Below, piece after piece: positions 3,001 to 64,000 of a DNA stretch of 64,000 bases. The stretch comes from Holothuria scabra. Lineage: Eukaryota; Echinodermata; Holothuroidea; Aspidochirotida; Holothuriidae. The notes beneath the pieces are model-generated. The model was not told where the DNA came from, did not search any database, and worked only from the letters and a program-made list of their open reading frames with translations. Within the stretch, counting starts at the first letter, position 1. Every line of letters starts with the position of its first letter. The position numbers and the translations under genes were made by a program. The DNA is taken from assembly GCA_037179385.1 (NCBI GenBank), contig CM074184.1:10186001-10250000 (forward strand), given 5' to 3'.

Positions 3001-4026
3001 TCTGCAATAATTGACCAAATGGGAGGGGGATACTCCCTACCCCTTAGACTGCTCCCCCAGGACAGTGATCACAATTTACCTGACTCTCAAAATGGTTTGG
3101 TGACAACTGTGACTGACACTCCAGACAATTTTATATACACCCATTGGCCTACTTGTAGAATTTGTGGTGTGGGTTAAGTGCATAACATCATTTTCCAATA
3201 ATCATTAAAAGTTATGTAGTCCCTAAAATTTGTTTTCAAAATATAACAGTCAAGCAAATTTCCTTTTATTTGCCTTTAATACATGTACCTTGCATGATGT
3301 TTGTAAGCATAATACTGCAAGCAGAGGTGAAGTAGGGAGTTACCTCCTCCAAAATGTCATGAATCAGTGACAAAATTATTGTCACATGACTAAACAATTA
3401 CTCATGAATTCAAATGAAACGACAGGGTTCACTAATTCTAACATAGGTGACTGCAGGTTCCCTTTGAATTATATGTTAATGAACATTATCCATCACAACA
3501 ATCTGGCTGGAGAATTACTAAAAAGAAGCATATTTCAGTTTTTTTTTAAGCCTTTGTGTTCTTCTATTTGAAATAAATATGTTGTCCAGCAAAGAAATAC
3601 TACTACACAAATCCCAGCAAATAAGATGGCACAAATGCATATAAAATGGTGTCATCAGACAAAGAAGGTGAGAGGTTACTCCATATGGTCGTTATAGAAC
3701 TTTGTCATGTAGGTTTCAAAGTTACAATTCAGCGAACAAGAACTGCAAATTCGCCAAACTATCTCACTGAGCAACCTTTTATTGACTTGAATAAGAAGTC
3801 AACGCACTTTAAAGCCTCATTTCACATTCTATGATGGTTATTATTCCATTCATGGGTTAATCTTTCATTCCATCTCTGACAAATTAGTTGTCTTCCTTCA
3901 TGCAAAGGAAAAAGGATGTTCTTCAGACTGCTCCTTTTTCATTGTTAAAAGAAGAGAGAGAAAAAGAGAGCATCCTAATTTGACCAATTATCTCAAATTC
4001 TGGACTGAAAAATCACACCGTATGTC
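1..4026. other. 3' flank / 3' UTR of PRPSAP, no second gene recognised
   Basis: AT-rich sequence with only short, unconserved ORFs on both strands. The part nearest 4027 must include the PRPSAP 3' UTR. I see no splice-flanked conserved peptide, RNA gene or intact transposon here. Confidence 0.5.
3778..3783 (-). terminator. Candidate polyadenylation signal of PRPSAP
   Basis: AATAAA on the minus strand about 245 nt after the stop codon; a second AATAAA is at 3265-3270. Either could end the 3' UTR. No transcript evidence is available here. Confidence 0.3.
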
Positions 4027-4185
4027 TCAGTCATCCAAAGGAATGTTTCGGAACAAGTAGGACATAGATTCCCCATTGTGTATTCTACGGATGGATTCGG
4101 CCAGCAGAAGACTAATATCCACAGTGCGGATCTTATTACACTGTAATCTCTGAACATCTTGAGGAAGAGTATTTGTAACCACAAT
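4027..4185 (-). CDS. PRPSAP: PRPSAP exon 9 (residues 308-359, stop)
   Basis: Terminal exon of 159 nt encoding [20 protein letters not shown], the [20 protein letters not shown] block and [12 protein letters not shown] followed by TGA. The end aligns without gaps to the C terminus of vertebrate PRPSAP1/2 as I know them. Confidence 0.97.
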
Positions 4186-13100: not shown

Positions 13101-13249
13101 TTTTTGACCCCTGTGACCTCAAATGACCTTCAAACTCGACCAAAATCGATAGGGTTCTTCCTCTTAATATAGGGCATCTATGTACTAAGCTTGAAAACTC
13201 AGCGACATTCCTACCTTGAGATATCGTGTTAACAAGCAAAGTGTCACAA

Positions 13250-13281
<32 letters not shown>

Positions 13282-19200: not shown

Positions 19201-22200
19201 CCCCAGGAGACCCTCGATCTCTGCCAAAATTAAATAGGACCATCTATTGACTAAAACGCATCTACATACGAAACATGAATTCTATTCAAGTTTCCTACCT
19301 TAAGATATTGCTTTAACAAGGTTTTCAGACTTTGACCCCTGGCGACCCCAGATGACATTTGACCTCCAACAAAAACAAAAGGTACCATCTTCTGACCATA
19401 ACACATCTACATACCAAATATGAAATCTATCTAAGTTTCCTACCTTGAGATATCACGTTTACAAGGTTTTTAGACTTTGACCCCTGGTGACCCCAGATGA
19501 CCTTTGACCTCCACCAAAAACAATAAGGACTATCTCCTGACCATAACGCATCCACATATCAAATATGAAATCTATCTAAGCTTCCTTCCTTGAGATATTG
19601 TGTGAATGAGATTTTCAGACTTTGACACCTGGTGACCCAAGATGACCTTTGACCTCCGCCAAAAACAATAGGGACCATCTCCTGACCATAACACATCCAC
19701 ATACCAAATATGAAATCTATCTAAGCTTCCTTCCTTGAGATATCGTGTTAAAGAAGTTTTTAGACTTTGACCCCTGGTGACCCCAGATGACCTTTGACCT
19801 CCACCAAAAACAATAGGGTTTTCCTCTCAACATGGCGCATCTATGTACCAAGTCTGAAAACTGTCTGACATTCCTATCTTGAGATATCGTGTTAACAAGG
19901 TTTTTAGACTTTGACCCCTGGTGACCCCAGATGACCTTTGACCTCCACCAAAAACTACAGGGTTTTTCCTCTCAATATGGCGCATCTATGTACGAAGTTT
20001 GAAAACTGTCGGACGTTCCTAACTTGAGATATGGTGTTAACAAGCAAAGTGTCACAAACACACACACATACACACACACGCACATACATACACACATGCC
20101 ATCATGAATGCATTGGTTTCTCTTATCATTGAAACCAAAAAAGGGATCATCTTCTCACCAGAATGTGTACATGTGAAAATTTCCCACCTTGAGATATGAT
20201 AACACCTAACAAGGTTTTAATTCACATTTTGACCTCCAGTAGCAAATGACCTTTGACCTGCATATAAGCCAGAGATAGATGGACAGACAGAGAGCTACCT
20301 TGATATTTCACCTTAACAATGTTTTCAGACTTTGACCCCTGATGACCTTTGAGCTCCACCAAAAGTAATAGGGACCATCTTTTGGCCATAAAGCATCTGC
20401 ATACAAATTATGAAATCTATCCAAGTTTCTTATTTTGATATCTTGTTAAAAAGATTTTCAGACATTGACCCATTGTGACCCCAGCTGACCTTTGACCTTA
20501 ACCATAACCTGTAGGGACCAGCTTCTGACCATAATACATCCACATACTACATGAAATCTATTCAAGTTCCCTACCCTGAAATACTGCCTTGACAAGATTT
20601 CAGACTTTGACCAGATAGACTCCACCAAAATAGGTTAGTTCTTGAAATTCAGTAGTAGGTTAGTTAGATATTTTTACACCTCAATAATTTTAAGCTCAGT
20701 GGCTAACCTATTAGACAAGTACAGTATCACTAAAAATGAAAATTTGAGAAAAGACTTTATTTATGATTTGAAAGTACACTAAGAAGGAAGTCATCATCAT
20801 TATAATGGATACCTTGCAGAAACCTGCAGGGTATAAACACAACAGTATGAGAGAGAGAGAGGAATTAGTAATATGCCAGGCAACTAGGTCTGCAGGTTGA
20901 CCATCTCTCCCAGTCACTGACTCTAAATTTGTAGCACACTTTTCTTCTTCCATGTATATCATGTTAACTTTACAAGGTTTATAAACTTAAGATAAACAGT
21001 AAAGTTCTGTTAAGCTTTGCATACATGATGATAATGTGATGGATGCATTTAGTTAGTTTGATGGGGTTTAACAGATGCCTTCAGCAACATTTGCTTACCT
21101 TTGTTGTCTTGGATGTAAATATCTGCTTTTCCAAGCTCTATACCAAGTTTGCTGTGGAAGGGGAAAAAAAGCATTGCAGAAATACAGAACACTCTAATTA
21201 AAATTACCAACTTAATAAAAACTTCTTAAACTGTCCTACCTAATAATCCTTCAATTACACGATTTAATTTGGTATAGTAGATGAAATTCTTGATAGTCCT
21301 CTAGGACATGAAAGTCATGGAAAATGGAAACAACAGAAGTCAGCATCACAGACCAATGACAGGGTTATCAATGAGCAGGGTTAAATGGATGGAGTTTTAC
21401 GTCCCAGTTACCAACCAACTGGTTCAAGTCAAGCCCGAACCAACCTTTTTCCAGTTATGGCTCAGTGGCTCACTGGCTTGTTTTCCCAGTATTCCCCTGC
21501 TTATGCTGAGCAGGGATGAAGGTACCCAAGTCAGTTCAACAAGGATTACAAATTTCCTGATCAGCAGACGTTAATTACAACTTACCTTTTAGTTCTGTGA
21601 AAATTACTTCTCCTTGAAAGTACTATGTTCCAAAATATGACGTAAGTTTCAGACAGAGAGCTGTTTATGGCATTGCAACTTACATCCAAATACTTCTTGA
21701 GGCTTGTTCTCAAAGACACCAATCAAAGCACTAACCTATCATCAGTATCTGATACCCATTTTTTAGCTACAACATTGCATTCAAGTATTATTTAAAAGTT
21801 TGCAGTTGACATTCCATCTTTTATGTCTCATGCAAAAACATTTACATGACATGTTCTGCTGCTGCAAAAACTTTTAAATCTTTGAAATATAAACATACCA
21901 TTTAAAATCAACCATCACCAACAGACTAGTCAAAGCTTACCGATGAGTATTTATGTTAGGCCTACTTTTTTTTATGTTATTGCACCATAGTAGTACAAGG
22001 TATCTAACAAGGTCTGGGGCCAATCTATTGTGTGTGAAATATCTATTAGCCTATGTAATGGAATAATTCAGTGCATACAAAACAGCACTTTCTGGGACAA
22101 GATTTAGCTTAAATTACTTATAATACTCTAAAATTTGACCTAACTTATAACTTGGGGCCTATTGACTGTAACTAGCATAGGGGTCTAGGCCTAGGCTTAT

Positions 22201-30471: not shown

Positions 30472-31374
30472 CTCCACGGATAATTGCTCGAAATTAGTGG
30501 ACAATTTTTTCTGAAATAAGTTCTGCCAAGAGCACTGTTGGTGTTGCGCTGGAACTTGCTACATAAATTTTGTACCCGTCATATATGTATGGGCCAAGGG
30601 AAATTGGAACATCATTATAGTACAGTACAACAACATAGCTACGTGATTCGCGCGCCTTAGGTACATGTGCGCATGCCAGACTCTGCTTAGCTACTTCCCA
30701 AAGTGGTGATGTGACCGAAGAAGACATATTATATTAAAGCCGTTTTACTTCATACGCATGCCGTAAAGTTTGCTACGCGGGCAAATACCCACAAAACAAT
30801 AAACAAAAAATTGTTTACTACCGGAGCGTATAATAACCTAGAACATAAGTGACGACCATAATATAAATAGTTGCAATCTTTCCCTTGTTTCTGTGCCCAA
30901 TGTGGTCTTCTGCAACGTACCAACGATGATGTTGATGATCAAATACGGAGGTCTGAGTGTGTGATTCTACCTGATTGTCTTACAAGTTGTAATTTGATCG
31001 AGTACGTGTGTAATCTCTTAGTTAAACGTCCAGATTCATTTTGCATTTAGTTGTTCTCAGGCTGTTTATTAAAGCCAGACGAACACTAGAATCACTCAGT
31101 CAACATGACACACTGAGTGTCTTCTCCAAACATGGAAGTACTACCTCGGACCGACGGGTAGTACTTCCATGCTCCAAACATGTTGCTAGTATCAAGCACA
31201 CTCTGGCAGGATCCTGATTTGGGATAATCCCATAGTATGTTTACTTGGTGTAAGATATTGGTAGCAACATACTAGGCACTTTTAGTTATGCACCATTTTG
31301 AATAATCTGGTGTCCTTTAGTGAACGTATAGCCAGGGGCGCAGTTTGAAGTTTGGTTTCGCCGAACGGCCCAAG
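30472..31374 (-). promoter_or_regulatory. PRPSAP 5' flank with two strong hairpins
   Basis: Upstream of the ATG; the 5' UTR and promoter should lie here. There is no convincing TATA box. CACTCAGT/ACTGAGTG (31093-31119) and the 15-bp arms CATGGAAGTACTACC/GGTAGTACTTCCATG (31131-31145, 31157-31171, 11-nt loop) are adjacent inverted repeats. A TE boundary is an alternative explanation. Confidence 0.4.
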
Positions 31375-31947
31375 TTCTTCTTCTTCTTCTTCTTCTTCTT
31401 CTTCTTCTTCTTCTTCTTCTTCTTCTTCTTCTTCTTCTTCTTCTTCTTCTTCTTCTTCTTCTTCTTCTTCTTCTTCTTCTTCTTCTTCTTCTTCTTCTTC
31501 TTCTTCTTCTTCTTCTTCTTCTTCTTCTTCTTCTTCTTCTTCTTCTTCTTCTTCTTCTTCTTCTTCTTCTTCTTCTTCTTCTTCTTCTTCTTCTTCTTCT
31601 TCTTCTTCTTCTTCTTCTTCTTCTTCTTCTTCTTCTTCTTCTTCTTCTTCTTCTTCTTCTTCTTCTTCTTCTTCTTCTTCTTCTTCTTCTTCTTCTTCTT
31701 CTTCTTCTTCTTCTTCTTCTTCTTCTTCTTCTTCTTCTTCTTCTTCTTCTTCTTCTTCTTCTTCTTCTTCTTCTTCTTCTTCTTCTTCTTCTTCTTCTTC
31801 TTCTTCTTCTTCTTCTTCTTCTTCTTCTTCTTCTTCTTCTTCTTCTTCTTCTTCTTCTTCTTCTTCTTCTTCTTCTTCTTCTTCTTCTTCTTCTTCTTCT
31901 TCTTCTTCTTCTTCTTCTTCTTCTTCTTCTTCTTCTTCTTCTTCTTC
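31375..31947 (+). repeat. Uninterrupted (TTC)191 / (GAA)191 triplet tract
   Basis: 573 bp of pure TTC on the plus strand (GAA on the PRPSAP sense strand), no interruption. It starts directly after the 3' UTR of LINE-C, so it is that element's 3' tail, probably expanded. Long reading frames of poly-E, K, F or S through it are artefacts. It lies 0.9 kb upstream of the PRPSAP start. Confidence 0.99.
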
Positions 31948-34187
31948 AAAGGTGACACATCCAAAGGACATTCTTTCACCACGCATGCGTCGAGAGGCTA
32001 AATATGCCCAGTAATATAGGTAATAGGGTCCTTATGGACAGAGGCAACCCTCATTACATTCAGGGGGAGATGATTCCAATCCTTAATGGTTCGAGGCAGG
32101 AAGCTAAATTTATAACAGTTAGTACTAGTATGTGGGAGACAGACATGAAGGTCATGCATTAAACGGGTTCTACGAGTAGGCCGCTGGAGACAATCAACAG
32201 GTAATTGAGCCAGGCCAAACATACCTTTGGAAAAAAGGATCAATCTACTTTTCCTCCGCCTTTCAGTTAAGGGCAGAAGGTTTAGTTCCTTAAGGAGCCT
32301 GGTCATTGATCCTGGCTCCCTTGAATAGTCAGAGGCAATGAATCTAGCAGACCGTTTTTGTATACTCTCAAGCTTGTCACGCAGGTAAACCTGGTGGGGG
32401 TCCCAAACACTACTGGCGTACTCCAGCACAGGCCGAAGGATTCCTTTATAAGCCATTAACTTGACATCACCAGGGCAGGAAGATAGATTTCTATACAGAA
32501 TACCAAGAATCTTATTTCCCTTGTTACAGATGTTTTGAATATGCTTCTCCCAGTTTAGATCTTTGGTGATGGTTATTCCGAGATACTTAATACTATCTAC
32601 CCTCGGGAGCTCAATCCTATTTAGAACATACCTAAAAAGTATGGGACTTTTTTTCCGAGCAAAAGTAGTAACGCTACACTTAGTGGGCTGAAATCTCATT
32701 CCCCACGTGGAAGCCCACAGCCCCAACTGCTTGATATCATTCTGAAGTTTATGACAATCCTCATCGGACTCAATAATACGGTAACAGACACAATCATCTG
32801 CAAAGAGGCGAACCTTGGAAGAAACACCATCGACGATATCATTGATATGAACCAAGAAGAGAATCGGTCCTAGGACAGACCCCTGGGGAACTCCAGACAG
32901 AACTTGCATCGGGGGAGACCGGGTTCCATTGACAACAACAGATTGTTTACGATCAACAAGAAAGTCATCAACCCAACGAAGAATCTGATTTGAAACACCA
33001 AGTGTATACAGCTTGGTCTTCAGCAGTTCATGAGGAACAGTATCGAAGGCCTTCTCAAAATCCAAGATAAACACATCGACTTGTTTATGGGCATCAAGGG
33101 AGGAAGCCCAGTCCTCAATTATCAACACAAGTTGTGTTTCACAACTACGAGACTTGCGAAAGGCGTGCTGGGTGGGAGAGAGTAAGTTATGTATTTCAAA
33201 ATGGTTCATAAGGTTTGAGGCAATAATATGTTCTAACAATTTACAGCAGACACATGTAAGAGAAACAGGCCTGTAATTACAAGGTAGGGAACTGTCACCT
33301 TTTTTGAAAATAGGGCAAACATTTGCAGTCTTCCAATCCTCTGGAATGCATCCTTTTGTAAGGGATTGCTGAAAGAGATGGCTTAGAACAGGTGCAAAAT
33401 CAGTGGCAATCTCTCTCAGGACCCAAGGATGGATGCCATCTGGTCCCATGGCCTTATTGATTTTAAGACCATGCAAAAGCTTTTCAACGCCAAAGGTGGA
33501 TATAGTTATATCACTCATTCTCTTACACGTGGGTCTGATGAGGGGAACACTATGAAACACTGTTTTAGTAAATACACTACAGAACTGGTTATTGAGAGCA
33601 CGAACTTTGTCCAAGACGGTGACAGCTAGCTTATCATCGTTCTTAAGAGGGGGAGATTATGCCTATCTTTCTTCTGACCATTAATATATCTCCAGAAGGG
33701 TTTGGCATCGGCTTTGATATCGCCGATCATTCCATTAATGTACTTTTTATGGGAGGTGTGAATCTCTCTTTTGATTTTAGTCCGCAGATGAGCCCATCTC
33801 CCATAAATACCAGTCTTCCGGGTTTTTTTAAAAAGGGCATGCAATCTGTTCCTACGCCTACTTAGCCTGCGAATACTGTCGGTTATCCATGGAAGAGATT
33901 TTCTGGATTTGGCCAATCTAGTTGGAATATTATCCTTCACAGTTCTTTCAAGAAAGGACTTAATGAGTTGCCAATTTTCTTCCACAGTACGATTATCTTG
34001 CCCCCCGTTAAAATAAGTAGATGAGAAACCCCGTGTATCCTCCCTCATAGCAACAAAATTCCCCTTAGAGTACTGTAAAATGAGCCTTCCCGAGGGTCGG
34101 GAGAACTTTGGAAAAATAAATAATCTGGTACATAATTTATGTGTTCTTTTACGGTGTAAATAAGCAGACGTATTATTATGTAAATAA
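31948..34187 (-). mobile_element. LINE-C, jockey/CR1-group non-LTR retrotransposon, 5' truncated
   Basis: Minus-strand element: end of the EN-RT linker (34187-33650), reverse transcriptase (33650-31998), ~50-bp 3' UTR and (GAA)n tail. The endonuclease is missing. At its 5' edge it abuts the 3' end of B2, which either inserted into it or lies next to a truncation point. Confidence 0.92.
31998..33614 (-). CDS. Reverse transcriptase ORF of LINE-C (538 codons, long open frame)
   Basis: RNA-dependent DNA polymerase for target-primed retrotransposition. Residues ~56-60 GPDGI, ~101-106 PIFKKG, 114-118 YRPVS; motif A FILDFEKAFD (182-191), motif [12 protein letters not shown] (240-250), motif C FADD (271-274), motif E-like SIKYLGITITKDLNW; C-terminal WNHLP. 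All three catalytic aspartates are present. The true protein began upstream: the frame 33626-34261 continues it after a 1-nt frameshift near 33650, so this copy is dead as a whole although this part is open. Confidence 0.92.
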   Translation of the reverse strand: MDKVRALNNQFCSVFTKTVFHSVPLIRPTCKRMSDITISTFGVEKLLHGLKINKAMGPDGIHPWVLREIATDFAPVLSHLFQQSLTKGCIPEDWKTANVCPIFKKGDSSLPCNYRPVSLTCVCCKLLEHIIASNLMNHFEIHNLLSPTQHAFRKSRSCETQLVLIIEDWASSLDAHKQVDVFILDFEKAFDTVPHELLKTKLYTLGVSNQILRWVDDFLVDRKQSVVVNGTRSPPMQVLSGVPQGSVLGPILFLVHINDIVDGVSSKVRLFADDCVCYRIIESDEDCHKLQNDIKQLGLWASTWGMRFQPTKCSVTTFARKKSPILFRYVLNRIELPRVDSIKYLGITITKDLNWEKHIQNICNKGNKILGILYRNLSSCPGDVKLMAYKGILRPVLEYASSVWDPHQVYLRDKLESIQKRSARFIASDYSREPGSMTRLLKELNLLPLTERRRKSRLILFSKGMFGLAQLPVDCLQRPTRRTRLMHDLHVCLPHTSTNCYKFSFLPRTIKDWNHLPLNVMRVASVHKDPITYITGHI

Positions 34188-51735: not shown

Positions 51736-53120
51736 CTATGACAGATGTGGTATAATTAACGTTTGATACAAAAACCTTAGAACATGCTTTGGTAAAATGT
51801 GTTTTAACTGTGAAAGGACCCCTACCCCCTTTGGTACTTGGTTTGATACATGATTGATATGCTCATTCCATGAAAGCTTGGAATCGATGTAAACCCATAA
51901 GAACTTTACATAGTCAACTCTCTTCAAATAAGAACCATTGATTTTAATACTAAAGTTACTTATATTACTCTTTTCATTGAAAATGATGTAATTAGTTTTA
52001 TCTATATTAAGTGACAGCTTATTAACCGCAAACCAGTTAGTGTACACAGTGAGTTCATTGGTAATAATACGTTGAAGTTTGTTTACATCATTATCACTAA
52101 AGAAAATATTTGTGTCATCAGCAAATAGCACGACAGAAGCATTGGATGAGAGACTACCGATGTCGTTAACATAAATGATAAAAAGGAGTGGACCAAGGAT
52201 GGAACCTTGTGGGACACCGCAGGTAATCATTCGTATGTCAGAGCTGTAACCATTTAGAATCACAAATTGCTGTCTGTTCATTAAATAACTTTTAAACCAG
52301 GACAAAAAAATCCCACGGATACCGCAATAATTTAGCTTATGACAGAAGATATTGTGGTCGATAGTGTCGAACGCTTTGGACAAGTCAAGGAAAATGCCGG
52401 CTGTTGTTAGTTTTTTACTCATTGAATTTCTTAGTTTTTCAACTGCTTCTGAAAGTGCCATTTCTGTGGAAGTTCCAGAGCGGAATCCATACTGATGTTT
52501 GAAAAGAATATTATGTTTATCAAGAAATTTTACAATGCGGTTATAAATGAGATGCTCAAGTAGCTTTGAGAAGCACGGGAGAACAGAGATAGGACGATAA
52601 TTAGAAAAGGTATTTGAGTCACCTTTCTTAAAGACTGGAATTACTTTTGCCATTTTAAGCTGGTCGGGAAATTTGGCGCTAGATAAAGAAACATTAAAAA
52701 TATGAGTAAGAGGCTTGGTTATATACGGAATCGCCTTTTTTACAATAGAGGGACTAATATCATCATGACCAGCTGATTTTCCAGGCTTAAGACATATGTA
52801 TGCTACCTCCACTACTTCATTTTCAGTAATAGGAAGGGCAAAGGCCGAAGAATCCGTGTGGGTACTAGTTTTGTGCAAGAAGTCCGAGAATGATGAAGAA
52901 GAATTAATATTCTGAGCAAGTAAGGGTCCAACATTAACGAAGTAATCATTCAGGCCATTGGCAATATCACCTTGTTCAGTTCGCTTAACATCACGTACAT
53001 AATACTCAGGATAAATCGATCTCTTCTTATTCTTATTGATAACATCATTGATGGAGGACCATGTCTTTTTAAGATCATTCTTGCAGGTAGTGAATCTCTT
53101 AGTATAATAATTTTTCTTAG
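51736..53120 (-). pseudogene. LINE-A reverse transcriptase domain
   Basis: Open from ~53.12 kb to 51736 with TWSSINDVINKNKKRSIYPE upstream of the fingers, then KSAGHDDI, VIPVFKKGD, YRPISVLP; motif A FLDLSKAFDTIDH, motif B CGVPQGSILGPLLF, motif C LFADDTNIFF. Catalytic residues are intact. The frame then breaks, and the C-terminal domain (51303-51620, NQLPPSLKDLF, TLWNSIPVTLK) continues in another frame. Confidence 0.9.
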
Positions 53121-53128
53121 ATACACGA

Positions 53129-53134
53129 ATTACA
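53129..53134 (+). repeat. Target-site duplication ATTACA, left copy
   Basis: Identical to 61761-61766. Removing one copy and the DNA between them rejoins LINE-A in frame. Confidence 0.93.
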
Positions 53135-53641
53135 AGTAGTCAAAGACAGCTTTATAGGGAGTGACCAATCAGAAGCCAGCATGAGGATGACGTCATGGTT
53201 GCCAGGCAACGGTCAAGGTCTTAGGTCATGTGGCATTGACTTTCAGGTCAGGGTCAGGATAAGGTCAAGCTTACGGTTACGATCAAGGTCACGATTATAA
53301 TGTGAATATCATTAAGAAAATATTCTGTAGGCAGAAGTTGGCAGAAGGAGGACTCGAACCCGTGCTTCGGAACCCGTGCATTTGTCACAACATCCTCTAC
53401 AATAGTGCCGGCAAAGCGGCAGTTTGACTATTCTGGGTGTATACTTATTTTATAAAGGCACAAGCCCCGATCGATCGATACAAGACACACAGAAAAGAAA
53501 AGACCACACAAAAGGGCTGTCTGGGTGGAAGACTTTTATTTGCTCGTAGATAAAAATCGATGTCACTGCACAAAAGAAGAAGGGCTGTTTCAATGTGTAC
53601 ATGAACATTCAGTTGTAGGGCCTACAGACGTTATCCCTTGG
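53135..53641. repeat. Left terminal inverted repeat of the 8.6-kb element
   Basis: Inverse partner of 61235-61760. Contains, on the minus strand, a B-box-like GGTTCGAGTCC, GTTGCCTGGCAAC, TGACGTCA, CTGATTGG and TATAAAG. Small indels distinguish the two TIRs. Confidence 0.95.
53150..53210 (-). promoter_or_regulatory. RFX / CRE / CCAAT / TATA module in left TIR
   Basis: Minus strand, reading outward: GTTGCCTGGCAAC (53210-53198), TGACGTCA (53195-53188), CTGATTGG (53172-53165), TATAAAG (53156-53150). Same order and spacing as in the right TIR. Confidence 0.6.
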
Positions 53642-54584
53642 TTGTAGTCACTGTACAGAAGAGTGCATTGCGAGAAACCCAAACAACTTGGTTTAGTACA
53701 CAAAAAGACCAAGGTACATAAGCTGTTTAATAGGAAAAGTGGAATTTATTGTGGTGACATGATTCGTAATCGGAGGAAATAATAACATAAACAACTTAAA
53801 ACTTTTTGAACGAATGAAGACTGTCCGGTATGTGTTTTCCGTGTGAACTACGGGAACGTCCCTGTAATACCAAGAGTATGCAAATAAAAGTTGAGAATAT
53901 CTTTGGATGGTATAAAGATGAAACCTACACTTATAAGTTATTGGAAGAAGACAATTGTCAAGATCATAAAGCAATTGTTTCAGAACAAACTTATGTTCGC
54001 AATAAAGGTGTGTCGGCAACAGTGTTTTTACTATATGTTCTCTGTGATTTTAATGGATTCGTAAGACTGGTAAGTGCTTCTTTCCTTTGTGTTCTTATCA
54101 CAGGATACATTACGTAATAGATCTTGAATGTTATTACTGGCATGGTACAATTGTTGCCATTCAGCAGGGTTTAAGTAGAAATATTTCCTCGTTGAGAATG
54201 ACTTTTTTTTTGGTTTGGTCCGTTGTAGACAAATGTAGGCCTATATCCTGGGACCTATAGGTTTCACGGTCACAGATGTAGTCTTGCTTAACGGTAAGTC
54301 AAGCAAAGGCCGAGAAGGCTTCATAGGTTTGGTCACTTTTGAAAAAGCGTTAGGAGCTAGCTTCGGGTTATAGGTTGAAGTAGGAGCTGCATGGGGATCC
54401 CTTCAATCGGTTTTTGTCAGCTGGTTTCCTGTGAGCTAGGGTTGTAGTAATATAAGTTTCCTTTTGAGTCGATGAAAGTTTGCCATTAAGATGCCATGTT
54501 GTAAGATCGGTGTTGCTTGGACGACTGACAAGTATGAAATGATGATCATGATCCACCGTCATCTGTTAAATCACATCCAAAATT

Positions 54585-54679
54585 GACATTGTTGTGGGCT
54601 GTAAGCGTCGGTTCTACAGATCACAAACACCACAATGGTGGGATCTTTCAGATTCGAGGGTTCGATTCCCTCAGGTGTC
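54585..54679 (+). ncRNA. tRNA-like module, copy 1
   Basis: 95 nt with a perfect T-arm (GAGGG-TTCGATT-CCCTC, pol III B-box GGTTCGATTCC), a hairpin AGATC...GATCT enclosing CACC/GGTG, a hairpin GTGGG...TCTAC, and partial pairing of the ends (GACATTG with AGGTGTC). It does not fold as a standard tRNA, so treat as tRNA-derived or tRNA-mimicking. Confidence 0.45.
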
Positions 54680-55305
54680 CCTTCTTGTGGAGTCAGCTTA
54701 TTAAGCCTATGCAAAATGTCATCACTTAAACATACTGTTTGACTTTTTTCTAGACTTTGTCTAACAATTTATCAAGATTGAAGGCTGATCTTTGCCTAAT
54801 CTTTGTTATCTGTATCATCATTCTGTAAATCGTGTCGTCACGGCAACATTGGTCTTTCTTGTTCCTTCCTCATGTAACGACAAATTTTACTGCTTTCATC
54901 TTAACATTGAATGTAGGCCTAGTGAATACTGAATTTTAGGCTAGTCATCCCAAGGACTTTGATATTGATATTTCTCACTAGGTTACTGTATTAATATTTT
55001 AAATGCTGAACCGATCATTTTATGTCGTTTAGTGTATCATGTTTTGACCATTATTAATGTCTGGATCTGACGTGTGTTACTTAAAATAGTTGTGATGGGG
55101 CTTTGTATTTGTGGAGCTGACGTGTGTTACTAAAAAAGCATGGGACTGACAATATAAAAGATGCTGCATCAAGGGTGCAGAATCATTCCGAGGAGTAATT
55201 TTCAGAAGTAACCAAACGCCTATTTTGTTCGTTTTGTTTTGACGACTGGCAACTATGAAATGACGATCATGACCCACCGTCATCCATTAAATCACATCCA
55301 AAATT

Positions 55306-55400
55306 GACATTATCGTAGGCTGTAAGCGTCGGTCCTACAGATCACAAACACCGCAATGGTAGGATCTTTCAGATTCGAGGGTTCAATTCCCTCAGGTGTC
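55306..55400 (+). ncRNA. tRNA-like module, copy 2
   Basis: Same 95-nt length. Hairpin GTAGG/CCTAC is fully paired where copy 1 has GTGGG/TCTAC. AGATC/GATCT and GAGGG/CCCTC are kept, with T-loop TTCAATT. Confidence 0.45.
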
Positions 55401-56078
55401 CCTACTTGTAGAGTCAGCTTATTAAGCCTGTGCAAAATGTCATCACTTAAACATACTGCTATGGACGTTTTTCTTAACTTTGTCTCGCAATATATCAACA
55501 TTGAAGGCTTAGCTTTGCCGAATTTTTTTCTCTTTTTTGTATTATCATTATGCAACTCGTGTCGTCATGGCAACACTGATCCTATTCTTTTTCCATGTAA
55601 TGAATGCTAATCATTACCTTTAGTAATAACAAGCTGGACTTTTAAAAGGTAGATCTCATGAATGCATAATACTGGGCCAGTCATTTTAAGGATTGCCATA
55701 ATCATTTTCCTCACCAGGTGACTGTGCTAATATTGTACAGTACTTTATGTTATGTAATATTTAGTACCGTGCAGTCGCAGTACGGTAGTATTTTTTTCTT
55801 TTATTACTATTTTTAACTTGAAATGGAAACTGTAATGTGGATTTAGCAAAGGTAATTTTTTCAGTGTTGATCGGTATCGCTTTAGAAGGCAATGTGCACC
55901 TCGATATTTAAACGTCGTGACAGGTAAGTGTTATTTGTTTACTGTTTGAACAGATTTTAGACACATCATATTAATTGCTATTGTAAAGAGTGCAAATATT
56001 GATTTCTCTCTGGGACCATAAAGAACGATCAGAGTGAGTAACTTAGCTTTGAAATGGTAAACATGACCCTCAAACATT

Positions 56079-56170
56079 GACAACGTCGTAAGCTGTAAGC
56101 GCCGGTTCTACATATCACAAACACCATATGGATGGATCTTTGAGATCCGAGGGTTCGAATCTCCCAGCCC
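56079..56170 (+). ncRNA. tRNA-like module, copy 3 (decayed)
   Basis: Keeps GCTGTAAGCGCCGGTTCTAC, CACAAACACC and the B-box GGTTCGAATCTCC, but the T-stem and 3' end are altered. Confidence 0.3.
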
Positions 56171-56470
56171 AGCAAGCAAGCCCTGTTGGGCACCAAGTGG
56201 GTTTTACTTGGGAAGCTTGAACTTAGTTGGGCTTGGGCTAAAGTTGGTATTGTCATCAATGTGGCCCCAAATGGGACCCAATATGGTATGCTGGCAGGGA
56301 AGTGTCCATACTTGTTCACCGGCAGCTCATAGCCTCAGCAATGTCATGACATAGACAGACCCAACCTTTGGTTTAGACTATGCCTAATAAAATATCATTA
56401 TTGAAGGCGTACCTTTGCCGAGAGTTTTTTGAATCATTATTTTATAATTTTTGTCGTCATGGAAACACTT

Positions 56471-58184
56471 GTTAGTTTTTCGGAAGTAAAGGGTGTTGCT
56501 CCGAGCCTTAGTTAATGACAAATTGGCCTGAACTGCCTTTAACTATGGCATGCAAGCCGCGTGGATACATTATTTAGGCTAGTGATTTGGTTGTAATATG
56601 TTGATTTTTCTCACCCTGTTACTGTGCTATAATATTTTGCTTTAGTTTTATATCACTTATGTGTATATTGCCAAGTGTTCGCCATTGTCAATGTTCATAC
56701 AACTCAATTGCAAATGTAGGCCCATAATCCTTTCAGCAAAACAGTGCAGCCATGTTATGATGTTTGTCAGGTTGTTATTTTAGAGTGTAGGCAGCTGTAC
56801 TTTACTACGTCAGTGAAACCAACAAAGTTAGCGGTATGAAGGGAAGGAATCAGATCGTATGTTAGCTCACTCACAATAATGATCTGTGATAATGGTCGTG
56901 ATTGGGTACAGTGCAGGGAAGGGTAGTTAGTTCCACGCCGTGTATTACCATGATCAATGGGAAAGTTTGGCATACTTATAACAGTAAGAAAAAATAGTCC
57001 AAAATAAACTTTAAGTTTCCTCATTTGCATTTGAAAATGTTTTCTGAAAAATTAAAATTCACATCCCCAACTCAAAAAGGGCCAAGCCTGGCAAGAACCC
57101 TCAATTTATTTGGCCGAACAATTGTTGGGCACCATCCCTGAATACCAGGTTGTGAGGCATATATGTTTTCAGTCATATCCAAAAATCGCTGCCAAAGTAA
57201 ACTCAATGAACTAGTTGTTCAACAGTATATTCATACTGTAACCTAATCAAGCGTGCTCCCAGCGGTAGAACTTGCTCCGGAAAATCGGTGTGGTGCTAGT
57301 GGGCGCATCTCTGGTGCTCGGGGCAGTGCTCTTATTTCTCGGGAATTCTCGATGTGGAGCCAGAAACGTAGTCAGTCGATAAACTTTATAGACGTTGCAC
57401 TACCAGCCTGCTGGGTGTGAGTTGGCTTGACGCTAGACGAGCAGCACGTGAGGGCAAGCTCAGCCATGTTCGGACTAATCGGTCTGTGTAAGTCGCAACA
57501 ATTTGATGTCATTAACACGTCCAGACACGCTTTTTCCGACGAGTGAAGAACTATTATGATTTTTTGAGAATTTCGAGTCTATGAGTGCATGTTTGTAGGC
57601 AAGCTTTCGGTTTGGCCCTTTTCGGGAGTCTTAATTGAGGTCTTATCGTTATGTCATTGTCCGATTGTAATACACCTGACCAAATGGTAATTCCCCCAGT
57701 CCCTTTATCTTTGTTAAACTGCTCACCAATATGTCTTGGTTGGAAAAATGTTGACAAGGTCCAAGCAAACGATTCACGACTGGGACAACTTATAGGCTAA
57801 ACCTAAATGTTTTCCACATAGAAAAAAACACTGTCTACATTGACGTTACGAGTCTTCACAGACTGACTGGCCTTTGCAATTGGTATCTGTCAGGCTCTCC
57901 TTGCGTATGTGGGACAATCGGAACAGAAGAACATATCTAGAAATGCTCTCCTGAGCAACGCATGAAGCGCCGGAGCAGAGGACTTCTGTCCTCCAAGTCC
58001 ATGCTTGCAGTATGACGGAGCAGAGAAGTAGATATTATGGTGTTGTTCATTCCATATGCTCATGTGCCCGAGTGTTCTTTGACGCTTGATCATCTGCTCC
58101 AAGCGAATGGATTATATTTAAGTCCATGAAGACTCGTGTTTCCCACATTAAATAACACACCTTTGTGAATGCAACACCTTAAGT
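56471..58184. other. Interior of 8.6-kb element, unassigned
   Basis: No recognised domain. A short start-like sequence, ATGTTCGGACTAATCGGTCT (57465), followed by GTAAGT could be a small first exon for the C2H2 ORF, but the splice acceptor side is not evident. Confidence 0.35.
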
Positions 58185-58631
58185 ATGTCTCACCTTTGTC
58201 ATATTTGTCGGGTGCCTTTTACAAGAAGCTTTAATCTTCGTCGGCATATAGAGCGTGTCCACAAGCACCCTCATGGGGACCTTGAGATGGACGGTGGGAA
58301 CTCTAAGAAAGGTATAGCGAAGCGACTATATGACTCTCCAGACGAGGTCTCATACAATGATATTTCAGAGAGTGACATAAGCAACAGTGTATCAGAGCAT
58401 CTGGAGGAAGACAGCATGACTGGCAGTAGCGAAGCTGACAACACTGATGTCTGCAGCGACACCGAGGGAGTTGGCAGCAGCGAGGAGGAGTCCGAAGAAG
58501 CTGGCACTGAGACCGAAAATGATGAAGAGGAAGACGATCGTCATGGAAATGTGTCTTGTCCGATCGACACTTGGGAAAATCTAGTCAAATTGCATAAGGC
58601 CATGGGAGTCATTTTAAATCGAGGACATTAG
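58185..58631 (+). CDS. C2H2 zinc-finger protein with long acidic tail (148 aa), cargo of the 8.6-kb element
   Basis: The only ORF inside the element that looks protein-like. Residues 5-26 form one C2H2 finger, CHICRVPFTRSFNLRRHIERVH (shown here as C-x2-C-x12-H-x4-H with F10, L17), followed by a basic patch, then a Ser/Glu/Asp-rich acidic region (~50-125, with EEESEEAGTETENDEEEDD), and a short hydrophobic C terminus DTWENLVKLHKAMGVIL. Suggests a nucleic-acid-binding protein with an acidic activation or nucleosome-contacting tail. GC content is higher than its surroundings. Start: first ATG, context AAGTATGTC; an upstream exon is possible. I do not recognise the family. Confidence 0.6.
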   Translation: MSHLCHICRVPFTRSFNLRRHIERVHKHPHGDLEMDGGNSKKGIAKRLYDSPDEVSYNDISESDISNSVSEHLEEDSMTGSSEADNTDVCSDTEGVGSSEEESEEAGTETENDEEEDDRHGNVSCPIDTWENLVKLHKAMGVILNRGH

Positions 58632-59960
58632 ATGTCGTACAACCATGTCGTACAACCAAGTATAAAGTATGACAACTCGAAACTCCTGGAGTTGAAGGTC
58701 ATCCGCTCTTACCCGAAACAGTCCTTTAGTGGCAGTCGACTTAGACTCGACAGTATCGCCTAGTGTACACAAAACGCGTACAGTGAGTCATGGCTACACA
58801 TTACCATGTGGTTACTGAAGTTGAACTGTATGTTGTAAAACATTTTTCTACTGACACCGTGTGCTGATACCATTAATTCAAGAATAGTGTTGGAAAACAT
58901 GAAGTAGTCATGTAACCTAAAACATTTCATTGTCTTTCATTCTTGACCACTACTTTTTTCTGTGAACTGTGATTTATAAACTCATGGCAATGTGAGAAAA
59001 CGAACAACTGTGATGCGTAAAGGGTTTGAATTGCTATAAATGGATGGGAAATGGGGAGGGGGTCAAGCTCTTCCTAGACCAGGTTACAAAGTGTTTAGGA
59101 CAGGGATAAAGTGTCATTTAAAGAAACGGACGGGATCTAAATTTTTGAGTTGACAAGCGATTAAATGCAAAATAGCCAGATACGTCCGTCCCATTCTGAC
59201 CTCATTATTCTCCACGGCTTTTTGGTTTTCATTATTGCTGTTATTGTTATGTTATGTGTAGTGGTCGAACGCTAAATAAACTCAACGATAACAGTGCTTT
59301 TCGGGTCATATGAATAGCGTAATACATTCATGGGGAGCTTTTTTCACGACTTAAGTTAGTTACCTATGGGTTCTCGAAAATCTTGGAAAATCGGAAATAA
59401 ACCACATTGTAAGGCGCAATGTGTACGTATTTTAAGAAAAGTGTGTTAATCACCATAACGAATGTCGATTCAGCATGCAACCTATATATATTACTGTACA
59501 AAGCGATTTCATGTCGTTGGCTTTATTTAGATGGGCGCTGTGTTCAAAATGTATTTGTTCCCTTCGTTTCCTTTAATACTTTTCACTTCAATGACCTGGA
59601 AGGAAAATTAGTTTTTAAAGTTGCGTTGCAAAAGATAACGGCAACTGATGCCGTTATCACAAAGTAGGAATTTTTGGCTTGTAATGCGATCTCCTCCTAG
59701 TAAGTCTAGTGTAGACCTATGGAAAGTATAGATATGCCAAGCATATGCCGAGCCATGTACTGTCGCAACCAGCGTTTTTAGCACCTTCATAATACTTTTA
59801 AGCGCATCAAGTCATTATTTTTATTGCTAAATAGCCTGCAGAATATAAACACCGCAACGCTCCTGGTGCATTTGAAGACATGCCTTACATTCTGATTACA
59901 TCATGGTAGTCTGATGCTTGCTCGTCAAACCTCTTTCAGATTTTTCATTCATTAATTAGC
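58632..59960. other. Interior of 8.6-kb element; one arm of a direct repeat
   Basis: 59200-59370 (TTATTCTCCACGGC, GTTATTGTTAT, TTTTCGGGT-ATA, CACGACT-AA-TAGTTACCTA) recurs at 60705-60890, bracketing the minisatellite. Otherwise unassigned. Confidence 0.6.
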
Positions 59961-59984
59961 ATTCCACCGTGCATGCCCTTCTTC

Positions 59985-60700
59985 TCCGAAAGCTGTTCCA
60001 ATGTTCATGATCATATGTTCCGGTTGTCTACCAGGCACGCTTCGACACGTGCTCTATGGCACTTCACCGTGTATGCTCCTCCCTACCCCGAAAACTCCTT
60101 TGGAATGATGCTCATACGGTATGCTCCGGTGGTCTGCCACGCGTGCTCCGACCCGTGCTCCAGGGTACTCCACCGCGTTTACTCTTCTGCTCCGAAAGCT
60201 GCTCCAGTGTTCATGTTCATATGCTCCGGTGGTCTACCATGCATGCTCCGATCCGTTCTCCGTGGTACTCTACCGCGTGTGCTCTTCTGCTCCGTATGCT
60301 CTTCTGCTCCGACAGCTTGTCTGGTATAACGCTCATATGCTCCGATGGTCTACCACGCGTACTACGACCCGTGCTCCACGGTACTCCACCGCGTTTACTC
60401 TTCTGCTCCGAAAGCTGCTCCAGTGTTCATGTTCATATGCTCCGGTGGTCTACCATAAATGCTCCGATCCGTTCTCCACGTTACTCCACCGATTATGTTC
60501 TTCTGCTCCGAAAGCTGCTCCAGTTTTCATGTCCGTATACTCCGGTGGTCTTCCACGCATGCTCCGACCCGTGCTTCGTGGTACTCCACCGCGTATGCTC
60601 TTCTGCTCCGTATGCTCTTCTGCTCCGAAAGCTTCTCTGGTATAACGCTCATATGCTCTGGTGGTCTACCACGCACGCTCCTACCCGTGTTCCATGTTCG
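59985..60700 (+). repeat. ~100-117-bp minisatellite
   Basis: Units containing CTCCGAAAGCTGCTCCAG, GTTCATGTTCATATGCTCCG, GTGGTCTACCA and CTCCGACCCGTGCTCC. Unit starts at 60191, 60407, 60507 and 60624, with some units carrying an extra 17-bp GTATGCTCTTCTGCTCC. Related units continue at 60940-61130. Stop codons are rare, giving long ORFs in all three plus frames, which argues against any of them being a gene. Confidence 0.93.
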
Positions 60701-61234
60701 CATCCTGACGCCATTATTCTCCACGGCATTATCTTCTTGTTTTTTATTAATGTTGTTATTGTTATTTACAGTAGTGGAACCTTAAATCCAGTCAGCGATT
60801 TGAGTTGGAGGCTGAGTGTTTTTCGGGTTATATAAAAAGTTTAAAAAACATAGGATGCCAGTTGCCTTTTCACGACTAAAAGTAGTTACCTACAGTTGAG
60901 TATGGGCTGTCATTTTTTTCATGAAACAATCACCGTGTATGCTCTTATTCTCAAAAGCTGCTCCAGTTTTCATGATAGTATGTTCCGGTGGTCTACGACG
61001 CATTCTCCGACCCGAAGTGCATGGCACTCTTTCGCGTATGCTCTCCTGCTCAAAAGGCCGCTTTAGTGGTCATGCTTATATGCTCCGATGCTTTACGACG
61101 CATGCTTCGACCCTTGCTCCACGTGCCCCCTGATCTGCCTGTGAATCAGCGCCCTGCTGCCTTCGTCGTGAACACGGATCCAAGCTGTCGTCCGGGAGAA
61201 CACTGAATAGCTATCTACCTACCAAAGCGTGGTC

Positions 61235-61760
61235 CCAAGGGATAACGTCTGTAGGCCCTACAACTGAATGTTCATGTACACATTGAAACAGCCCTTCTTC
61301 TTTTGTGCAGTGACATCGATTTTTATCTACGAGCAAATAAAAGTCTTCCACCAGACAGCCCTTTTGTGTGGTCTTTTCTTTTCTGTGTGTCTTGTATCGA
61401 TCGATCGGGGCTTGTGCCTTTATAAAATAAGTATACACCCAGAATAGTCAGACTGCCGCTTAGCCGGCACTATTGTAGAGGATGTTGTGACAAATGCACG
61501 GGTTCCGAAGCACGGGTTCGAGTCCTCCTTCTGCCAACTTTTGCCTACAGAATATTTTCTTAATGATATACACATCATAATCAAATGAACATAACCGTGA
61601 CCTTGACCGTAACCGTGAGCTTGACCTTATCATGACCCTGACCTGAAAGTCAATGCCACATGACCTAAGACCTTGACCTTGACCGTTGCCTAGCAACGAT
61701 GACGTCATCCTCATGCTGGCTTCTGATTGGTCACTCCCTATAAAGCTGTCTTTGACTACT
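61235..61760. repeat. Right terminal inverted repeat of the 8.6-kb element
   Basis: Inverse partner of 53135-53641. Outer 60 bp essentially identical. Contains repeated TGACCTTGACC words (61674-61682 TGACCTTGA), the RFX/CRE/CCAAT/TATA module and, around 61500-61535, a tRNA-like B-box GGTTCGAGTCC preceded by a duplicated GCACGGGTTC. Confidence 0.95.
61685..61745 (+). promoter_or_regulatory. RFX / CRE / CCAAT / TATA module in right TIR
   Basis: GTTGCCTAGCAAC (61685-61697, RFX X-box), TGACGTCA (61700-61707, CRE), CTGATTGG (61723-61730, NF-Y box), TATAAAG (61739-61745), reading outward. A start ~25-30 bp after the TATA would fall at or just beyond the element end. Confidence 0.6.
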
Positions 61761-61766
61761 ATTACA
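61761..61766 (+). repeat. Target-site duplication ATTACA, right copy
   Basis: Identical to 53129-53134, directly after the terminal ...GACTACT of the TIR. Confidence 0.93.
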
Positions 61767-63620
61767 TGATTTAATTTGTTTCTGTAATTACGGTACATCA
61801 AAATATTTGTTTCCGTAGGACATTTGAGTTTAGTTTTGAGAAGTCTGATTTTGTTTTTATTGACTTAACAATTCCAGAGGAGATCCAATGTTTCCTTTTA
61901 TTTTTGTGGTGCAATTTACGTTCATTCACAGGGAAGCACTTTTCGTATAAAACACTGAATGTACGAATGAATGAGTTATACGAAGAATTCGCGTCCTGAT
62001 CTTCAAAGACATGATCCCAACTTGTTCTTGAAAGTATAAGCAGAAATGAATCAATATTTTCCTGGGAGTAGTTACGTGTAAATACATAATCCTGTGTCTG
62101 TATGCACCAAGTAGAACTAATGTTTAAAAATACCGGGAAATGATGGGTCAAGTCGGTGAGCAAGATTCCCGATTCACTGTTCAACATAACATAACAGGTT
62201 GAAGGGCAAAGGAGGGCCAAGGCCCCATAAGATGCCCTGAAGTCCAAGCCCTAATCAAAAGTCAAACCACCAAAGCTTGACAACAGCCCCAAACAATCAG
62301 ATTCTACCACAGCCATGGAAAAACCTGTCAATGTTAACCTTAAAGCAGTGAACTGAGGGGGAGTTAACTACCCAATCTGGTAGACAATTCCACTCGTTGA
62401 CAACTCTATGGGAGAAACTAAACTTCCTAATGTCAAGCCTTGCAAAAGGCTTTTCCAGCTTTTTACAATGCCCACGAAACCGAGAATTACTTTGAACCCT
62501 TAAATAACTACAAGTCAAAAGGGGATTCCTTTCAGAAAGAAGTATGTAAACCTGGAGCATCCTTCTCAGCTCCAAGGTGGTAAGCCCAAGATGTTTAAGC
62601 CTAGAATGATAAGGCAAATTTCTTACTTTCCCTTTACCTCAGGAATGAGGCGAGTAGCTTTCCTCTGAACCTGCTCTAAAAGAAACTTGTCCTTTTCATA
62701 GAAGGGACTCCAAGCCTGAGCCGCATAGTCAAGATGGGGTCTTACCAACTGCTTATACAAATTAAGCACAATTTCCTTACTAAAATTGATGAAATTCCTC
62801 TTGATCAATCCAAGCACTCTATTAGCCTTTACAGCAGTGGCTGCACACTGCCTTGATGACTTTAAATCCCCAGTAATTACAACACCCAGATCTTTCTCAG
62901 AGGTGACATTACTTAAAACACGACCATTCATGTTATAATCATAGCTAAAACTTTTGGGACCAAAATGAAGGACCTTACACTTATCTGCATTAAAAGACAT
63001 TTGCCAGGTCTGAGACCAAGAAAATAACCTATTCAGATCTTTCTGCAGCAGTAAGGCATCATCCAAAATGCTAATCTTCCTATAAAGCTTAGTATCATCT
63101 GCAAACTTACTTATACGAGATGAAGTTGTTCTTGCTGCTTTGACCACCCAAACTCAACGTTTTGGTTATAATGTTGTCTATAAGAGAAATAGAGTTATTG
63201 CTTACACGAGTGGGTTTGGTGATGGTTGGTATGAAGTTATAAGAGGCAATATGGTTAATAAAAGAATCATTATCATCTAGGAGATTAATATTATAGTCAC
63301 CCATTATATAACAACCTTTGTTTTCGTCACTTATTGTATTTAAAACAGAGTCAAAATGCTCGTAAAACAACACTAAGTTTGCACTTGGTGGCCTGTAAAT
63401 GATCCCAACAATATTTTTTCTTCTTGTATAGGAATTACTTATTTCAACAAAAAGGCTTTCAAATGAATCATTAAAGATAGAAAGATCATCACGACTTTCA
63501 ATGCTAAAGTCGTTTCTCACAAATATACAGACTCCGCCACCCCTCCTTTCCTTACGATGATTTTCAAACAATGTGTAGTTGTCTAAATGTCTTTCAAATG
63601 GTGTTAATATTTGATTTTCA
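61767..63620 (-). mobile_element. LINE-A, 5' half (APE endonuclease), interrupted by LINE-B1
   Basis: Minus strand. The endonuclease N part at 63571-63150 has GGGVCIFVRN, VGIIYRPPSA, GDYNINLLDD and SLIDNIITKT. The C part at 62247-61798 has SGILLTDLTHHFPVFL (the H of the SDH-type active-site motif is kept; the preceding residues are changed) and the linker. LINE-B1 separates the two. A 1-nt frameshift lies near 61800. The 5' end is truncated near 63620. Confidence 0.9.
62186..63148 (-). mobile_element. LINE-B1, 5'-truncated CR1-type element inside LINE-A
   Basis: Starts just before motif C (SKFADDTKLYRKI) and continues through FNADKCKVLHFG, EKDLGVVI, LVRPHLDYAAQAWSPFYEKD and LIPEV (62623-63147). 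A frameshift leads into LKHLGLTTLELRRMLQVYIL and RVVNEWNCLPDWVVNSPSVH (62297-62617). The 3' UTR and CATAA repeats end at 62186. Sister of B2. Confidence 0.9.
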
Positions 63621-64000
63621 TCAGAGGTCTATGACAATAACTGACTTTTTCGCGGCGTCACAAAGACAGACAGCTTTCATAGGGTATTCCAATAGAAGTT
63701 GTACTTCGTTATGACGTTACAAAATAATTCGTACAAATTTCATTTTCGTAGTTCTGTGATACAAATTATTCATTTTACGCAGGTTGACAAATGTTGGATA
63801 TTTTCTTAAAAGGGATGGAAACACACAAAGTCTGATCGGATTCCGATCTGAATTTGTTGTAAGTGTAACTTCGGCGTGGTGAATTGCTTAGCTTTCATGT
63901 TGTGTGTTTGTGTGAGTTAGAACAAATACGTTGTCCTTTTTGAGATTTTAGATAGGCCTATTACGACTATGACAATTTCCCTACACTAAGCCCTCTCCTC
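63621..64000. other. Right edge of window, no feature recognised
   Basis: AT-rich sequence beyond the truncated end of LINE-A; no conserved ORF. Confidence 0.45.

Follow-up and report, generated by a model that had tools for sequence, protein, structure and literature searches.

A zinc-finger-bearing Polinton derivative in the genome of Holothuria scabra, probably a satellite of full-length Polintons

The element and its full-length relatives

The window analysed here is a stretch of 64,000 nucleotides from Holothuria scabra (C6:10186001-10250000; the genome searched comprises 1.19 Gb in 31 contigs), and it holds an element of exactly 8,626 bp (53135-61760) that interrupts a long interspersed nuclear element (LINE) and carries an open reading frame (ORF) for a C2H2 zinc-finger protein (Table 1). 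The element starts with AGTAGT and finishes with ACTACT, i.e. (AGT)2//(ACT)2, and its coordinates and sequence agree with what had been predicted from the letters alone, namely exact boundaries, AG...CT termini and a perfect 6-bp duplication of ATTACA. The inverted repeats, which had been put at ~0.5 kb, have that length, with 94.1% identity over 527 aligned columns (10 mismatches, 3 gap openings). The LINE is likewise split into two halves on the minus strand as described, and in-silico excision of the element with one copy of the duplication yields an open frame across the junction. We consider it probable that the element is a satellite, that is, a non-autonomous Polinton/Maverick derivative moved in trans, with the zinc-finger gene as its hallmark; it does not qualify as an autonomous Polinton and does belong among the Polintons as a derivative.

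A search with the outer 200 bp of the element, in which 40 of 103 candidates were scored, gave matches at 45 genomic places, and the sample studied consists of 14 relatives with both ends read, which together with the window element give 30 ends. Perfect 6-bp duplications flank 12 of these relatives, and AGTAGT is exact at 29 of the 30 ends, the remaining one reading AGTATT. Five relatives of 12.6-14.3 kb (C18, C15, C14b, C7 and C6c), hereafter the helpers, have the Polinton gene set. Pfam annotation, covering ten ORFs from C18 and C14b, identified DNA_pol_B_2 (E 6.9e-48), an rve integrase (E 2.7e-11) with a chromodomain, a packaging ATPase of the Pox_A32 type (E 1.3e-5) and a weak adenovirus-endoprotease match (Peptidase_C5, E 1.5e-3, below the Pfam cut-off), leaving five of the ten without a Pfam match. 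The gene set was also found in C7 and C6c by tblastn with the C18 and C14b proteins, while for C15 the list of its ORFs was the basis of the judgement; the helpers have both open and broken genes. In the 14.2-kb Polinton L009 on C18, polymerase B (2812-6891) has an N-terminal WW match (E 3.2e-4, below the Pfam cut-off) and a separate WW-domain ORF lies near the left end (1205-1588, E 1.2e-8); the terms 'Polinton' and 'WW domain' were not found together in the open-licence PubMed Central (PMC) literature.

The helper genes run in the order integrase, 249-aa protein, 147-aa protein, 448-aa protein and protease, which is the order int, minor capsid, PW, major capsid, pro that the available text of PMC8097293 gives for Mavericks. 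The capsid-type genes of the helpers are putative, being named by their position in this order only. For the 448-aa protein, 2,734 relatives were found among 8,000 scored candidates; among the 120 matches listed the best, all of Holothuria leucospilota, are 94% identical, while the name F54H12.2-like is given to several and capsid protein to one. The excerpts of PMC8097293 also describe the (AGT)2//(ACT)2 end motif and 6-bp duplications for vertebrate Mavericks.

Compared with the helpers, positions 1-2101 and 8001-8101 of the element and its ends match, and the ~5.9 kb between are foreign, except that the left part recurs in diverged form at ~2097-2600 and in short stretches at ~3.0-3.4 kb. 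Searching the element by tblastn with eight core proteins and the WW ORF gave no match to polymerase B or the rve integrase, and neither the packaging ATPase, the capsid proteins nor a complete protease was found. The statement in the original prediction that no Polinton core gene is present thus holds for complete genes and has to be amended for a fragment, since protease residues 31-66 remain at 61129-61236. Between the two identities then offered, that of a Polinton derivative which is non-autonomous and carries cargo of its own is borne out, as same-ended relatives encode Polinton genes and WW and protease remnants persist in the window. The other, an undescribed long-terminal-inverted-repeat superfamily whose 6-bp duplications would be a coincidence, could appeal to the window copy, whose ORFs by themselves include no evident transposase; it is contradicted by the helper gene set and the window remnants, and we regard it as extremely improbable. 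The proposed search with the outer sequence of the inverted repeats returned copies with 6-bp duplications as well as same-ended relatives with polymerase B and integrase, and neither another duplication length nor an unrelated transposase was encountered among the relatives. Ginger DNA transposons, which make 4-bp duplications and have TGTNR ends according to the accessible text of PMC2836005, are ruled out by the 6-bp duplications and AGTAGT ends.

Copies with the same body, here called window-type, were found at C6b, C14a, C4:28.68 Mb, C3:5.65 Mb, C21, C9:36.65 Mb, C9:31.02 Mb and C3:62.88 Mb; the compact ones measure 8.4-9.7 kb, and that on C21 holds an additional inserted retroelement, judged from its ORFs. 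Two further loci, L030 and L032, are window-type at ~86%, with one end seen in each.

The ends of the window element are of the same type as those of helpers in the same genome, and its body belongs to a different subfamily from these ends. Beyond the left segment that matches L009 (Table 1), positions 886-2300 match the window-type body, with helper C7 at 86-99%, and positions 8101-8626 correspond to the inverted left end of L009 at 97-100% per 100-bp block, a single base (read by eye) being common to both sources at the right junction. The right end of the element is therefore a second left end, an arrangement that we call an end swap. The sister copy C6b, 98.8% identical and also with ~0.5-kb inverted repeats, has the same swapped structure elsewhere in the genome with the duplication TCTATG, so the swapped molecule could be inserted. 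An extreme case is C19, an element of 4,102 bp with the duplication GCCTAC, whose arms of ~1,918 bp are 99.4% identical and contain the right-hand portion of the window-type body. The idea that long inverted repeats are a trait of the family was not upheld: repeats of ~0.5 kb recur only in C6b, and the other 13 relatives differ, with 85-144 bp in 12 of them and ~1.9 kb in the palindrome C19.

The ends also have a conserved motif block (Table 1). In the window's group, CCAATCAG at position 31 and TGACGTCA at position 54 occur in 30 of 30 ends and GTTGCYAGGCAAC at position 64 in 26 of 30; variable columns number 13 of 24 at positions 7-30 versus 10 of 45 at positions 31-75, and, as the ends were picked by similarity, this conservation is partly built in. 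In the next 325 bp there are 1-7 RGGTCA repeats per end, on one strand only, compared with 0.3 per 325 bp inside satellites and ~1.0 per 325 bp in the window outside the element (169 in 55 kb), both controls counting both strands. We take the motif block and the RGGTCA repeats to resemble sites for NF-Y, CREB, RFX and nuclear receptors. Adenovirus origins also use host factors next to the terminus.

Table 1. Features of the element and of the interrupted LINE, in positions of the window
Feature	Position	Strand	Remarks
LINE, 3' half	51736-53139	-	reverse transcriptase PF00078, E 6e-34
Target-site duplication, left copy	53129-53134		ATTACA
Left inverted repeat	53135-53641	+	507 bp, begins (AGT)2
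Helper-type left segment	53135-54019	+	96-100% per 100-bp block to the left end of the 14.2-kb Polinton L009 (C18)
Terminal motif block, left	53165-53210	+	CCAATCAG 53165-53172, TGACGTCA 53188-53195, GTTGCCAGGCAAC 53198-53210
Body common to other window-type non-autonomous copies	54020-61234		
Helper WW-domain ORF remnant	54106-54506	-	broken (stops, frame change)
Direct repeat pair	54510-54737 and 55231-55458		228 bp, 92% identity
C2H2 zinc-finger ORF	58185-58631	+	148 aa, proposed hallmark gene
Degenerate repeat array	59963-61118		~100-bp unit
Helper protease remnant	61129-61236	+	residues 31-66 (36 residues), cut by end swap
Right inverted repeat	61235-61760	-	526 bp, finishes (ACT)2
Terminal motif block, right	61685-61730	-	same motif block
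Target-site duplication, right copy	61761-61766		ATTACA
LINE linker stretch	61767-61864	-	rejoins 3' half in frame after element removal
Further LINE linker ORF	61798-62250	-	different frame
LINE endonuclease	63107-63628	-	PF03372, E 1.8e-5

A zinc-finger gene in three kinds of element

The zinc-finger protein has one C2H2 finger (PF00096, E 4.7e-4, slightly below the Pfam cut-off), an acidic serine-rich middle part and a C-terminal helix. Among ~5.8 billion proteins, a single-sequence search gave 8 hits, of which 4 are named, and a search with an alignment of ten sequences (A2) gave 15 hits, 9 of them named (3,288 candidates); all named hits in both searches come from H. leucospilota. In IMG/VR, 29 stretches fit the pattern of the protein, none of which was confirmed as a relative.

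In the genome itself, 150 of 157 candidates were scored and 130 finger-protein matches resulted, which were tallied by script for identity, coverage and stops. They include 22 places with at least 84% identity over at least 138 of 149 residues (19 stop-free), 67 near-full-length places at 41-52% identity (64 stop-free) and a third finger type at 32-33% identity in at least 2 places; 12 window-type and 20 palindrome-type loci were hand-picked from these matches for closer study. Fourteen pairs of the 41-52% group are spaced 0.5-1.7 kb apart, and all 14 face outward.

None of the 130 matches lies inside the six full-length copies compared, one of which was read in part, or inside the more distant seventh, L031 (overlap was checked by script for 96 rows and by eye for 34). 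Carriers thus number 0 of 6 helper copies, set against 130 matches elsewhere, a contrast drawn from too few helpers to be firm and to be read with the mild constraint within kinds. Such a small sample leaves some room for the finger gene being a normal Polinton accessory gene that the full-length copies in hand happen to be without, the more so as accessory ORFs are frequent in Mavericks in the available part of PMC8097293. Against this stand the lack of matches in these seven copies and the observation that, WW and protease remnants apart, no core gene could be detected in the carriers examined, and we regard an accessory gene as fairly unlikely.

A different doubt is whether the gene matters at all. 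The element could be a dead Polinton, a deletion copy filled with junk and spread by chance, with the finger ORF as a passenger; it has no complete core gene, and its WW and protease remnants are broken. A first test for purifying selection on 8 window-type copies was not significant, and pooled ratios of non-synonymous to synonymous differences (pN/pS) within kinds, for ORFs pre-chosen as open, are 0.65 (18 window-type ORFs) and 0.51 (19 palindrome-type ORFs), which is mild constraint and would suit a passenger. From these ratios, 8 of 46 loci were left out for want of a suitable ORF (L023, L032, L054, L055, L057, L062, L067 and L068), among which L032, L054, L055, L057 and L062 list no stop, so that some were excluded by the start-and-motif filter and not by breakage; L056 was excluded as the sole ORF of its kind, and several ORFs that were included have shifted stretches or altered tails (e.g. 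L030, L043, L050 and L063). The comparison between kinds (five ORFs, eight pairs), with pS of 0.69-0.79 and pN of 0.32-0.47, is a stronger argument for constraint than the window-type copies alone. Alignment A2 has 23 invariant columns, among them the two cysteines and two histidines of the finger and the tail residues K138, A139, G141, I143, L144 and R146, and this conservation indicates that the protein has outlived nearly all other similarity between its carriers. The same body has moreover been inserted many times with separate 6-bp duplications, and the gene occurs, mostly in open frames, in three otherwise unrelated kinds of satellite; a dead Polinton accordingly appears improbable to us.

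Palindromic carriers and the surrounding sequence

The pairs of the 41-52% group sit, where read, in large palindromes. One of them, C20:10489577-10496641, is 7,065 bp long with the duplication CTCTAT, (AGT)2//(ACT)2 ends and arms that are 98.4% identical over at least 3.2 kb, each with one finger gene. A genome search with palindrome-type ends scored 40 of 88 candidates; ten end pairs were tried in one batch, for which three ends fell outside the stretch (C13, C1 and C9), those on C1 and C9 being located later. Altogether 20 elements with such ends were read, 16 of them with exact 6-bp duplications, and inverted arms were confirmed in 11 over 0.4-3.2 kb, the other nine being read at their ends only. 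The 16 end pairs among the 40 scored ends span 3.9-8.2 kb. In L035 a single finger gene lies in the spacer. The third finger type, for which one element was read, is represented by L090 (2500-9273), an element of 6,774 bp with the duplication TATGTA, arm segments of ~1.9 and ~1.1 kb that enclose a single finger gene. L033-L037 and L090 showed no detectable core gene. The only DNA similarity of L033 and L090 to the window-type loci is 38-88 bp of finger code, and as this is the one stretch of DNA that the window's kind was found to share with the two others, we propose the gene as the satellite hallmark.

Palindromes of the L033 kind carry a further gene. A Bcl-2 homologue, whole or in part where the stretch ends early, is present in the arms read (L033-L035, L070-L089 and L115). 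The copy in L088 (423-827) is open (PF00452, E 3.8e-20) and matches solved Bcl-w and A1 chains, that in the partner arm L089 has one stop, and the other copies read past that point are without residues ~49-77; no Bcl-2 match was obtained in the window, the helpers or L090. The H. leucospilota gene model P0003 fuses a Bcl-2 part to the finger protein. That this part is a host gene around an inserted element was considered and rejected, since the palindromic satellites carry the same Bcl-2 gene.

As an alternative to Polinton replication, gene conversion or ectopic recombination by the host might have produced the extended repeats and palindromes in elements already inserted. Palindromes and duplications can also come from chromosomal repair, and several duplications are imperfect: those of 2 of the 14 relatives differ by one base (C14b, TATGCA/TATGCC; C9a, AAGAAA/AAGCAA), those of 3 of the 20 palindrome-type-ended elements do not match (C3:27.77 Mb, C9:44.17 Mb and C2:74.25 Mb), and at C2:26.04 Mb one end is mutated, and a shift of 2 bp beyond it is needed for the two copies to match. 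This account has to contend with the swapped form occurring at two places with different duplications, in the window and at C6b, and with matching duplications, exact or in that one case shifted, in 17 of the 20 palindrome-type-ended elements, which indicate that the rearranged molecule probably preceded insertion. We therefore judge host recombination to be a rather unlikely source of these forms. The small copy at C2:74.25 Mb (L115, C2:74245100-74249300) has inverted arms and flanks that are themselves inverted repeats, and is not a simple insertion.

Around the window element, the stop-to-stop frame of the LINE 3' half extends 5 bp into the element, and the frame on the 5' side opens only at 61864. 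The linker ORF in another frame implies a separate frameshift in this LINE copy, ~0.1 kb further 5' of the junction. A second retroelement fragment seems to split the LINE between endonuclease and linker (62297-63153, with reverse transcriptase-like ORFs seen by eye); the ORF at 62623-63153 has no Pfam match. An Rfam scan of 53000-62000 gave no match. Elsewhere in the window, self-comparison revealed a large repeat array over ~10 kb (10362-20612, ~145-bp spacing by offsets), and a long three-base repeat run lies at 31300-31960 with poly-Glu, poly-Ser and poly-Leu frames.

A proposed guild of Polinton satellites

From the ends, duplications and mosaic structure described above we infer a mechanism that would combine supply in trans, template switching and a role for the finger protein. 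Helper polymerase B and integrase would recognise the satellite ends, copy the satellite by protein priming and insert it with a 6-bp duplication; according to the text available of PMC8097293, the end repeat of vertebrate Mavericks is considered to have its function in the jumping-back step of protein-primed replication. The satellite would have lost most of the core and gained in its place ~5.9 kb of other DNA with the zinc-finger gene. Replication may then have switched template near the right end and copied a helper left end, giving the 0.5-kb inverted repeats, and the same type of switch on the satellite's own strand would yield snapback palindromic satellites that are subsequently inserted. 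The finger protein, encoded by the satellite, most likely regulates transcription in the helper or the host; it would bind DNA in the nucleus and favour the satellite over either of them.

Several observations weigh against this satellite reading, in addition to the mild constraint and the imperfect duplications. The predicted structure of the finger protein is poor (mean predicted local distance difference test score, pLDDT, 56), with only the finger helix and the C-terminal helix. The control outside the element exceeds that inside the satellites, so that RGGTCA enrichment is modest for some ends, and the motif block is not in the ends of the palindromes. A helper for the palindromic kinds was not found, the longest pair among the 40 scored ends being 8.2 kb. 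Between L033 and L090 there is no DNA match at E 1e-6, even in the finger code, and they are linked by protein. Mobilisation in trans, finally, is argued from genomic DNA.

Known systems offer partial parallels. Phage satellites such as P4 and the phage-inducible chromosomal islands (PICIs) depend on a helper and have their own hallmark regulator, as is proposed for the window's kind; unlike them, the elements described here live in an animal host and have Polinton ends, and interference with a helper would be hypothetical. With Polintons and Mavericks, the window element has in common the 6-bp duplications, the (AGT)2//(ACT)2 ends, the inverted repeats and full-length relatives with core genes, whereas it is without a complete core gene, has its own zinc-finger gene and has a left end as its right end. 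The nearest parallels to the proposed mechanism may be defective adenovirus and adeno-associated virus (AAV) genomes: snapback genomes of AAV are palindromic subgenomic molecules dependent on a full-length relative (excerpts of PMC8235507), and for adenovirus there are left-end fragments and a packaging domain whose function is retained near the right end as well (excerpts of PMC5033970). Unlike these, the forms found here are integrated, multi-copy and equipped with a conserved gene that is missing from the full-length copies examined. Large retrotransposon derivatives are also long elements without core genes that are moved in trans (PMC6431247, as far as its text was accessible), whereas Polinton machinery and a conserved open gene characterise the present case. 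No description of a non-autonomous Polinton or Maverick was found in the parts of the open-licence PMC literature available, although one may well exist elsewhere, and none of a palindromic, snapback or defective-interfering Polinton was found there by title and abstract start.

The surprise lies in a gene family common to three satellite kinds and in the palindromic form of two of them. We put forward, as a suggestion whose chances we consider even, that these kinds form a guild, in which at least three otherwise unrelated satellite lineages have retained nothing but the (AGT)2//(ACT)2 ends and have in common a single-finger, acidic, helix-tailed DNA-binding protein that none of the helpers examined was found to encode, two of the lineages being snapback palindromes of ~4-8 kb and one of these carrying Bcl-2. 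This bears on the question of whether animal Polintons act as replicating viruses or as plain transposons. If the guild is real, Polintons would be genuine virus-like helpers with parasites of their own, comparable to phages with P4 and PICIs, and there would be indirect evidence that Polintons replicate by protein priming in animal germ cells. End swaps and palindromes inserted as finished molecules are the expected errors of protein-primed, strand-displacing replication and may thus be its fossil record. Further, a conserved gene kept by the parasites would point to helper and satellite contending over regulation within the genome of an animal.

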